Assembly (NCBI GenBank): GCA_022821965.1
Contig: JAJECN010000041.1
Span: 1-64,000, forward strand
Reading direction: 5' to 3'
Length of the DNA stretch: 64,000 nucleotides
Source of the DNA: Candidatus Poribacteria bacterium
GTDB lineage: Bacteria > Poribacteria > WGA-4E > WGA-3G
Position numbers and translations under genes: made by a program. The notes beneath the pieces were generated by a model, which was given only the letters and a program-made list of their open reading frames with translations, did not search any database and was not told the origin of the DNA. This document shows, piece by piece, positions 21,090-24,075 of the stretch. Position 1 is the first letter of the stretch. Every line of letters starts with the position of its first letter.

Positions 21090-21337
21090 TGTCCTATATC
21101 CTTCTTCGTTGAAGTCGCACGAGGTGTGCTGATGGGAATGTTTAAGATATACAAGTATATCAAAAAGGGTTGAAAACCAACTCTCTAACTGCTGTTAAAG
21201 AATTTTAAAGTGATTTAACGATTTTTTCAAGGAAAAGTAACAAATTTTTCGCATTTGACCTTACTTTTAAAATTGGAGGAGGTGAAATTGGGAACTTTAC
21301 CAGTAAAGATGGGAAAATTCGCTGGAAACGATGACAT

Positions 21338-21366
21338 TTGACAACACGGCGCATTTCTACTATAAT
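21338..21366 (+). promoter_or_regulatory. Consensus sigma70 promoter, predicted leaderless transcript
   Basis: A perfect TTGACA (21338-21343), a 17-bp spacer and a perfect TATAAT (21361-21366). The ATG of the DUF5916 gene is at 21374, so +1 falls on the base before it or on the A itself, and there is no room for an SD. Confidence 0.75.
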
Positions 21367-21373
21367 TAAACGC

Positions 21374-23632
21374 ATGCCAAGACTCATAATTGTCCTACTG
21401 CTAACGATCTCATATCCAACACTTCTCCTCGCACATCCAGAAGGGACAGGTGATCACGTCGTTGCAGCCTACCGAATTGTAGGTGAGCCACCGCAAATTG
21501 ATGGAATATTAGACGATCAGGCGTGGCAGCAAGCAGAACCGCGCAGCGGTTTTATTCAACTCGAACCGGCACGCGGTAATCCCGCAACCGATGATACGGA
21601 GTTCCGTATCGCTTACGATGTGCATAACCTCTACGTCTCATTCCGATGTTACGATGCTGAACCCAACAAGATCATCAATCGAATGACGCGACGCGGCGAC
21701 ATCTACGCCTCGGATGTCATCTCTTTCTTTATTGACCCGCATCACGATCATCGTACCGGCTATAAATTCGCTACCAATCCAGCGGGTGTCCAAAGCGATA
21801 ATTACCGGTATGAAGACACACAACGCGACAGCAACTGGAAAGGGATATGGTGGGTTGAGAGCAATATTGATGAATCGGGTTGGACTGCCGAGTTCAAAAT
21901 CCCTTTCTCAAATTTCCGATTCACTGACAAACCGACACAGATCTGGGGTTTTGATGTGGAACGGGTAAACCGCCGGAAAAGCGAAGTCACGGTGTGGAAA
22001 CAGTTGACACAGGCGGGTGTCGTCACGCGGATGTCCGATTTAGGACACATCGTAGACATCCAAGGTATTGAGACCGGAAAGAACTTTGAAATCTCGCCCT
22101 ATCTTTTAGGCGGTGGTATGGATGCTGCTGATGCCAATTTAACGCGACAACTCGGAACAGGTTTAGATGTGCAATACAGCCTTACGAGTGCTTTGAAGGC
22201 GAATGTTACTGTCAACCCCGATTTTGCACAGGTCGAAGCAGATCAATTGGAGATCAATCTGACGCGCTTTCCGACGCGCTTTCCAGAAAAACGCCCATTT
22301 TTTGTTGAGGGAAACAGTTTTTTTGAAACGCCGTATGATCTGATGTTCAGTCGTCGGATCGGGAGTCGTGGCAATATTCTCTGGGGCAGTAAACTCACCG
22401 GTAAAGTTGGGAACTATTCCATCGGTGTCTTGGGAAATCAAACCGGCGAATTTAGGTTTTCTGGGGATGCTTCGGAGGGGCACAACCTAACAGGTTATGC
22501 TACAAAGGAGGAAGCATGGTTCTCAGCAATCCGTGTTAAACGCGACATCCTCAAACGTTCAAACGTTGGAATTCTCTTCGTGAATAAGGAACAACCCGGC
22601 GGCGATGGTTGGGAACACAGTCGAGTGGGCGGTATTGATATGAACCTCGCCTTGGGCAAAACCTATCATCTCACGGGACAATATGCGGGTAGTTTTCATC
22701 CGGGGGAGGACAGTGATAACTTCGCTTATACTGTTGACTTCGCACAACGCAACTATCTCTGGAGCAGCGGTATCGGATTTGAACGGGTCGCGCCACATTT
22801 TGAGATCAACCAGACAGGCTTTCTACGGAAAGAACGGAATCGCGGCTGGCAGCGCGTCTATATGCGAAGCTCTTATTCCCCACACTGGGGCAATCATCAA
22901 TTTTTCTCTGGCGTAACCGCCCGCCTTTCGCAAAGCCTTTATACACCGGAATACTTTTCCGAGTGGCAAGAACGCAACTCAGAGTTGTCTCTTTCGGCTG
23001 AATTCGACGAGGATCTTTTCAGATGGAGCGCAGGTGCGGACATCGGGATGGACTTCAGGGAAATCCTCTTAGATGATATTAATGTCTACTATACTCGAAG
23101 TCGAGAAGTTGAACTCACTGAGGTATTTACAGCAAATAGATATGGGTTTGAGATGGACACCAACTCCACATATCCAATTGCTTTCGGGATCGCTATAGAT
23201 TTCGCAGACTATTTTAATTTTGGACGGCAGCAAGCAGGCAAACAGCGGGGTCTCTCCTTTGAATCCACCTTACGACCACAGAGCAATTTTTCTATAGAAT
23301 TAGACAGCAGCTACGCGCAGAGTCTTGATTTGGAGGGTGCTATTGACGGTAGATTTTTCGTTAGTTCGCTGCGGGCGACATATCTATTCACACGTGAATC
23401 GTTTCTCCGAATGTTTGCACAAGCAAGTAGAGCACGCCCACTATCTACCGAGGTTCATGAGAGCTACCTACTCAGTCTCCTCTTCGGATGGGAATATAGC
23501 CCGAAAAGCCATTTTTTTATTGCATATAACGAGACTTGGGGTGATGCTCTCATTGGTACGACCACTCGTCGTGAGTTACAGTTGGAAAACCGTGTTATTG
23601 TCGTTAAAGTAACGTATCTCTATAACCTATAG
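21374..23632 (+). CDS. Outer-membrane beta-barrel protein with CBM9-like domain (DUF5916)
   Basis: The product has about 752 residues. A signal peptide (PRLIIVLLLTISYPTLLLAHP) is followed by a CBM9/DOMON-like beta sandwich at about 30-235: PPQIDGILDDQAWQQAEP, AYDVHNLYVSFRCYD, VISFFIDPHHDHRTGYKF and WTAEFKIPFSNFRF. A DUF5916 part of about 500 residues follows, with NPDFAQVEADQLEINLTRFPTRFPEKRPFFVEG (read as two adjoining segments) and alternating amphipathic strands ending in a terminal aromatic-rich strand (VTYLYNL). This fits an outer-membrane barrel displaying a carbohydrate-binding domain. The start at 21374 follows from the promoter: the earlier TTG at 21338 is its -35 box. Confidence 0.88.
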   Translation: MPRLIIVLLLTISYPTLLLAHPEGTGDHVVAAYRIVGEPPQIDGILDDQAWQQAEPRSGFIQLEPARGNPATDDTEFRIAYDVHNLYVSFRCYDAEPNKIINRMTRRGDIYASDVISFFIDPHHDHRTGYKFATNPAGVQSDNYRYEDTQRDSNWKGIWWVESNIDESGWTAEFKIPFSNFRFTDKPTQIWGFDVERVNRRKSEVTVWKQLTQAGVVTRMSDLGHIVDIQGIETGKNFEISPYLLGGGMDAADANLTRQLGTGLDVQYSLTSALKANVTVNPDFAQVEADQLEINLTRFPTRFPEKRPFFVEGNSFFETPYDLMFSRRIGSRGNILWGSKLTGKVGNYSIGVLGNQTGEFRFSGDASEGHNLTGYATKEEAWFSAIRVKRDILKRSNVGILFVNKEQPGGDGWEHSRVGGIDMNLALGKTYHLTGQYAGSFHPGEDSDNFAYTVDFAQRNYLWSSGIGFERVAPHFEINQTGFLRKERNRGWQRVYMRSSYSPHWGNHQFFSGVTARLSQSLYTPEYFSEWQERNSELSLSAEFDEDLFRWSAGADIGMDFREILLDDINVYYTRSREVELTEVFTANRYGFEMDTNSTYPIAFGIAIDFADYFNFGRQQAGKQRGLSFESTLRPQSNFSIELDSSYAQSLDLEGAIDGRFFVSSLRATYLFTRESFLRMFAQASRARPLSTEVHESYLLSLLFGWEYSPKSHFFIAYNETWGDALIGTTTRRELQLENRVIVVKVTYLYNL

Positions 23633-23671: not shown

Positions 23672-23700
23672 TTGTAAAAAGAATCAAGGTGTGATATAAT
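23672..23700 (+). promoter_or_regulatory. Sigma70 promoter, predicted leaderless transcript
   Basis: TTGTAA, a 17-bp spacer and TATAAT at 23695-23700, followed by AGAGCC and then the ATG at 23707. The predicted +1 is the A of the ATG. Confidence 0.65.
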
Positions 23701-23706
23701 AGAGCC

Positions 23707-24075
23707 ATGAAAGATTTTACACTGCTATTCTTCAACGTTCTATTAACAGTAATAGGACAAATCCTGTTCAAACACGGCATGAATATGGTAGGTCGTGTCA
23801 ACAGCGTTCGGGACGCGTTGGGGAAACTGACACAGGCGTTTCTCAACCCTTATGTCCTCAGTGGGATTGCAATATACGGTTTCACAACGCTCGTGTGGTT
23901 GGTTATTTTGTCCCGTGTTAAACTGAGTATCGCGTATCCGATGTTAAGCTTCGGGTATGTACTGTCAATTCTGTTTTCTTGGATGCTGTTCAAGGAATCC
24001 ATCCCCAAGACCCGCATAATAGGTGCTGTGATTATCTGTATCGGTGTCTACCTCGTCGCACAAGGAGAGTCTTAA
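23707..24075 (+). CDS. EamA/SMR-type four-helix membrane transporter
   Basis: The 122-residue protein has four transmembrane helices: LLFFNVLLTVIGQILFKHGM, VLSGIAIYGFTTLVWLVIL, IAYPMLSFGYVLSILFSWMLF and IIGAVIICIGVYLVAQ. The SYPxLSxGY-like stretch and the FKES loop are as in small drug/metabolite transporters that work as dimers, such as the lipid-linked aminoarabinose flippases and SMR family. The substrate is unknown. It appears leaderless and begins a run of co-oriented genes, with the next start 3 nt after its stop. Confidence 0.85.
   Translation: MKDFTLLFFNVLLTVIGQILFKHGMNMVGRVNSVRDALGKLTQAFLNPYVLSGIAIYGFTTLVWLVILSRVKLSIAYPMLSFGYVLSILFSWMLFKESIPKTRIIGAVIICIGVYLVAQGES

Follow-up and report, generated by a model that had tools for sequence, protein, structure and literature searches.

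A conserved consensus promoter abutting the start codon points to leaderless expression of a DUF5916/CBM9 gene in Poribacteria

Where does a transcript begin when a perfect promoter ends seven bases before a start codon, and is any leader left? The question is raised by the DUF5916/CBM9 gene in a 64,000-nucleotide stretch of a Candidatus Poribacteria contig (the whole stretch analysed, referred to as the window). The initial annotation had described TTGACA, 17 bp, TATAAT, seven bases and an ATG, and had placed +1 at or beside the A of the start codon, which would make the mRNA leaderless. The arrangement itself is borne out at 21338–21376, with the following elements:

21338–21343, + strand: −35 hexamer TTGACA, 27 of 28 orthologues have it exactly at the same place, as do L151 and L152
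21361–21366, + strand: −10 hexamer TATAAT, exact in 27 of 28 orthologues; spacer of 17 nt in 26 and 18 nt in one
21367–21373, + strand: discriminator TAAACGC, 7 nt, with a pyrimidine at −1; 6 nt long in 7 of 27 copies and 7 nt in 20 of 27
21374–23632, + strand: DUF5916/CBM9 coding sequence, 752 aa, ATG 21374–21376 at the predicted +1 (Pfam and orthologue alignment)

The two hexamers at 21338–21366 are separated by 17 nt, within the 16–18 nt that define a sigma-70 promoter with TTGACA and TATAAT, and form the sole exact TTGACA-N17-TATAAT match in the window. With up to two mismatches, 12 sites were counted in the window, whereas 100 shuffles averaged 5.7. The gene product matches CBM9_1 (PF06452) over residues 42–200 and part of DUF5916 (PF19313) over residues 240–332. 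Its N-terminus, judged by eye, resembles a signal peptide, and the protein is probably exported or located in the outer membrane. A sequence search for relatives of solved structure returned a single match, with an E value of 0.94, and a literature search on DUF5916 found no paper.

Perfect consensus promoters are ordinary in this genus. The 5.69-Mb assembly holds 75 exact sites and none of the reversed pattern, so that the exact sites, as a class, are not due to chance. The 35 other genomes of the same genus, from a scan of 60, hold 31 to 138 exact sites each versus 0 to 3 reversed. A tRNA gene lies within 250 nt of 7 of the 75 sites. One of these 75 promoters might simply happen to adjoin an ATG. 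Five of them have an ATG 5–8 nt past the −10 box, only that at 21374 opening a frame of at least 60 codons, and among 30 of the matched loci with a perfect promoter and an ATG in relatives, 25 lead to frames of fewer than 100 codons, some at tRNA genes. Against such chance placement, the arrangement persists in 29 of 30 orthologues, whereas the sequence outside it has diverged. Chance placement was rejected on this comparison and is considered very improbable.

The orthologues were collected by a protein search of the genome itself and 59 relatives, which gave matches in all 60. A close copy (approximately 80–100% identity) is present in 29 of the 36 genus genomes. G034 has two, which brings the number to 30, with the G022 copy split over two contigs, and the G027 copy and one of those in G034 cut by contig ends. 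Twenty-seven other genus copies, with approximately 82–94% identity, align from the same ATG as 21374. In G015 the gene is broken (L167, G015:C68), the same promoter standing immediately 5′ of a remnant that comprises roughly its final third only, and no copy at the close level was found in the six genus genomes G002, G004, G018, G019, G025 and G029. Upstream DNA was compared in 28 copies, and L151 and L152 were looked at separately, giving 30. The 27 promoter-bearing copies were chosen by exact hexamer match, which 27 of 28 passed, so that the identity of the hexamers is not counted as evidence. The orthologue counts are not independent of one another.

All 12 promoter bases, followed by an ATG 6 or 7 nt past the −10 box, are found in 29 of the 30 genus copies. 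The −10 box of a leaderless gene is expected 5–8 nt 5′ of the start codon; the distance is 7 nt at 21374 and 6–7 nt in 27 of 28 copies. Among these 28, a 17-nt spacer is combined with a gap of 7 nt in 19 and of 6 nt in seven, an 18-nt spacer with a gap of 7 nt in one, and the arrangement is absent from L099. L151 and L152 have the exact promoter with gaps of 6 and 7 nt, respectively. SD words (AGGAG, GGAGG, AAGGA, GAGGT, AGGA, GAGG) at −20 to −4 are found in none of the 27 promoter-bearing copies, and in L099 only of the 28. In two more distant, named genomes, L258 (79% identity) has the exact promoter with a gap of 7 nt and L260 (75% identity) has TTGACC/TATCAT with the same gap.

Judging from the alignments, the DNA more than 5 nt 5′ of the −35 box is not conserved among the genus copies. 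Over the 27 copies, the mean ungapped pairwise identity is 0.32 at 80–40 nt and 0.33 at 40–5 nt before the −35 box, a gapless comparison that underestimates upstream similarity. It is 0.67 in the five bases adjoining the box, and the spacer and the third codon positions each give 0.56. These values bear on the idea that the main transcript of the gene comes, with a normal leader, from a more distant upstream promoter, the conserved box being minor or regulatory. In the window, an SD-like GGAGGAGGTG at 21275–21284 is followed by a 17-codon frame that runs from a TTG to 21341, its stop overlapping the −35 box, and this counts in favor of the idea; among the printed 110-nt upstream stretches a similar stretch was recognized by eye only in G001 and G008. 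The absence of conservation upstream argues against this explanation, and the transcript would still be without an SD at the sole shared start. It is regarded as improbable. The sequence at 21214–21236, checked as a genome repeat, has one exact copy and is no repeat.

The in-frame TTG at 21338, just 5′ of which a TGA closes the frame, coincides with the −35 box, and the initial annotation had stated that it cannot be the start. Relatives confirm this, as some have in-frame stops between the −10 box and the ATG. The ATG is present in 30 of 30 copies. In nine of the 30 a stop lies two codons 5′ of it (TAA in eight of the 28, TGA in L151), so that neither the TTG nor any start upstream can serve these nine, and TTG 21338 was rejected as the start. 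In most of the remaining copies the frame is uninterrupted back to the TTG within the −35 box.

Transcription usually starts at a purine preceded by a pyrimidine. The base at −1 relative to the ATG is a pyrimidine in all 27 promoter-bearing copies (C in 15, T in 12), the background being 264 of 547 first-gene starts of the genome. A gene tree built from 26 sequences, with L118 (truncated) and L099 (without the promoter) left out, requires at least five C/T changes at this position and shows no purine. The pyrimidine in 27 of 27 makes the A of the ATG the natural +1. A one- to three-base leader, with transcription beginning at C 21373 or G 21372 and a nearly leaderless mRNA, is a close but less likely variant of this reading. 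A gap of 7 nt puts C 21373 as the seventh base past the −10 box and a G is found at −2 in 25 of 27 copies, as such a start would have it; where the gap is 6 nt (7 of 27), however, the seventh base is the A of the ATG itself, and the usual start pair also favors this A.

That the transcription start of the sigma-70-type promoter falls on the DUF5916/CBM9 start codon, giving a leaderless mRNA, is assigned a probability of about 0.86. Leaderless transcription at 21374, as proposed in the initial annotation, is strongly supported by the comparison of the genus orthologues. Alignment of their upstream regions, which had been called for as a check, uncovered no conserved upstream SD and start within the genus; outside it, the five copies examined in genus g5 are SD-led. 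RNA polymerase would bind the perfect −35 and −10 boxes and start at the A of the ATG, 7 or 8 nt past the −10 box, or within one or two bases of it. The mRNA would begin with AUG, or nearly so, without an SD. Its translation would follow the leaderless route, with 70S ribosomes probably engaging the 5′-terminal AUG. We infer the position of +1, firing in vivo and the leaderless mRNA itself from these comparisons, and the 70S route is presumed from published work in other bacteria. Ordinary leaderless expression is the most likely mechanism.

The arrangement is not indispensable, as six genus genomes are without the gene at the close level and G033 has lost the arrangement. In the G033 copy (L099), the exact promoter survives with its −10 box ending 245 nt before the ATG. 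The intervening stretch contains a repeat core of about 127 nt, for which at least 39 other matching places exist in that genome (40 of 248 candidates scored). The ATG is preceded by AAGGA, 14 nt away. An insertion seems to have separated the promoter from the gene.

Outside the genus, other patterns are seen. In g5, a genus of the same order, all five copies examined (G041, G043, G044, G045, G047) carry AAGGAG 8 nt before an ATG, and start at the residue matching the start of the window gene; G046, the sixth g5 genome, gave a partial match only. A clear −10 box at 6–7 nt was looked for by eye in G036, G038, G039, G048 and G049 and none was seen; G048 has GGAGG-type SDs. G042 has TATAAA, a possible −10 box, 8 nt before the ATG. 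The named loci encoding relatives are labelled Poribacteria in 26 of 27 cases and Gemmatimonadetes in one (L265, about 55% identity). A leaderless-type promoter was not found at the aligned start of the latter, nor at that of the g8 copy L263.

The gene that follows in the window seems, from its upstream sequence, to have a leaderless promoter of its own:

23672–23677, + strand: weak −35-like TTGTAA; ATTGTAA in 24 of 30 orthologue loci (our own reading), at varying distance from the −10 box
23692–23700, + strand: extended −10 box TGATATAAT; TGn and a −10 hexamer 6–7 nt from the ATG in 30 of 30 loci
23707–24075, + strand: next gene, 122 aa, EamA/TMEM234-like membrane protein, ATG 6 nt past the −10 box

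The comparison covered 30 of 33 close orthologues, with G028 and G033 seen separately and G026 left out. The TGn-extended −10 box stands 6 nt before the ATG in 26 loci and 7 nt in four, TATAAT is exact in 28 of 30, and the −1 base is a pyrimidine in 30 of 30. G028 and G033 agree with the arrangement, G033 having TAAAAT. A close orthologue is present in 8 of 14 genomes of the same order. In two of them, G036 and G039, a similar extended −10 box, TGATATAGT, precedes an SD-containing leader, and the ATG lies five codons further 5′; neither pattern is clear in the other six. When the short stretch of 27 nt 5′ of the box was compared between the families, aligned on the box, a mean of 12.7 (G039) and 13.1 (G036) bases were shared versus shuffle means of 8.7 and 7.3. 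The G039 value exceeds the 99% point (12.3) without reaching the maximum of the 2000 shuffles (14.4), and the G036 value lies above every shuffle (maximum 12.4). This suggests that the two families have one promoter, with and without a leader.

The prevalence of this organization was assessed on 1.18 Mb, in which a simple script called 887 ORFs, so that their starts are approximate. Promoters with at least 10 of 12 bases were found twice at a gap of 6 nt and twice at 7 nt, whereas the remaining 13 gaps between 0 and 14 nt together gave three; two of the four at 6–7 nt are those of the window genes, the window being part of the sample. Each gap from 28 to 60 nt, as in ordinary leaders, has 0 to 3 promoters. 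SD words at −17 to −4 occur in 297 of the 887 ORFs, with a peak 6–9 nt before the start. The genome-wide excess of good promoters at 6–7 nt is small, and a genome-wide leaderless habit was rejected on this profile. The pattern TGnTATAAT lies 4–9 nt before any ATG at 25 places versus 15 for the reversed pattern, and 7 of the places lead to frames of at least 50 codons. From these scans, leaderless genes seem to be a small class in the genome.

A further member may be a gene that we take from its motifs to be HD-domain-like (L218/L310, G000:C9:375043), with TATAAT 6 nt before the ATG. It occurs in 10 of 35 genus genomes, all 10 with a −10 box at 6–7 nt (TATAAT in nine, TATAAC in one), and the promoter stretch looks alike in all 10 though the other nine proteins share only about 55–69% with that of L218. 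G017 has a second, split copy with ATC in place of ATG.

Several other sites were noticed. At L052 (G000:C39:142434-142462), a perfect promoter is followed 5 nt past the −10 box by a GTG opening a 261-codon frame, and G013 has a similar site with ATG. L133, L135 and L140 are leaderless candidates. Going by sequence reading, the set comprises a 380-codon frame resembling a chromate transporter, found in two g5 genomes, and a peroxiredoxin-like one in G002 that is only 47 codons long. A glycerate-kinase-like gene, C9b 92281 and L222 are also candidates.

The cI mRNA of phage lambda, transcribed from the regulated phage promoter PRM, is a single leaderless gene in an SD-using background. The situation at 21374 is alike in that a single leaderless gene would stand amid SD use, and different in that the promoter at 21338, unlike PRM, is a perfect consensus that a whole genus conserves with few exceptions. 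Leaderless genes are common in Deinococcus-Thermus, where about one third of genes are of this kind, most without a classical −35 box; in the −10-adjacent genes, the −10 box is about 6–7 bp before the ORF, without a 5′-UTR and with no need for an SD (PMC12340547). The gap of 6–7 nt found here equals the spacing reported for Deinococcus radiodurans (PMC12340547), whereas the class described here is apparently a small minority and the promoter at 21338 has a perfect −35 box. The name Poribacteria is absent from the searched text of that paper. TA-led leaderless genes, with TANNNT about 12 bp 5′ of the start codon, have been predicted genome-wide across bacteria (PMC3160421). They resemble the present case in the spacing of the TANNNT-type signal and in the exchange of initiation signals between orthologues, but the phyla named in the part consulted do not include Poribacteria (PMC3160421). 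A literature search for leaderless transcription in Poribacteria found none, as judged by titles and the beginnings of abstracts.

Leaderless genes are thus of an already known kind, and what is added here is a small conserved class in an SD-using phylum. The comparisons also fix start codons that gene finders relying on SDs or on the longest frame could misplace. Tentatively, Poribacteria may keep a small and old set of dedicated leaderless genes, in which selection would hold promoter and start codon as one unit. The maximal strength of the promoter at 21338 would, hypothetically, offset weak leaderless translation. The set may arise from leadered promoters by loss of the SD leader, an origin suggested because relatives of both window genes are SD-led, and may be favored when the state of the ribosomes favors mRNAs with a 5′-AUG. 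One gene is found in three states, apparently leaderless in 29 genus copies, SD-led in g5 and separated from its promoter by a probable insertion in G033, so that a change of initiation mode can be tested directly at one and the same gene.
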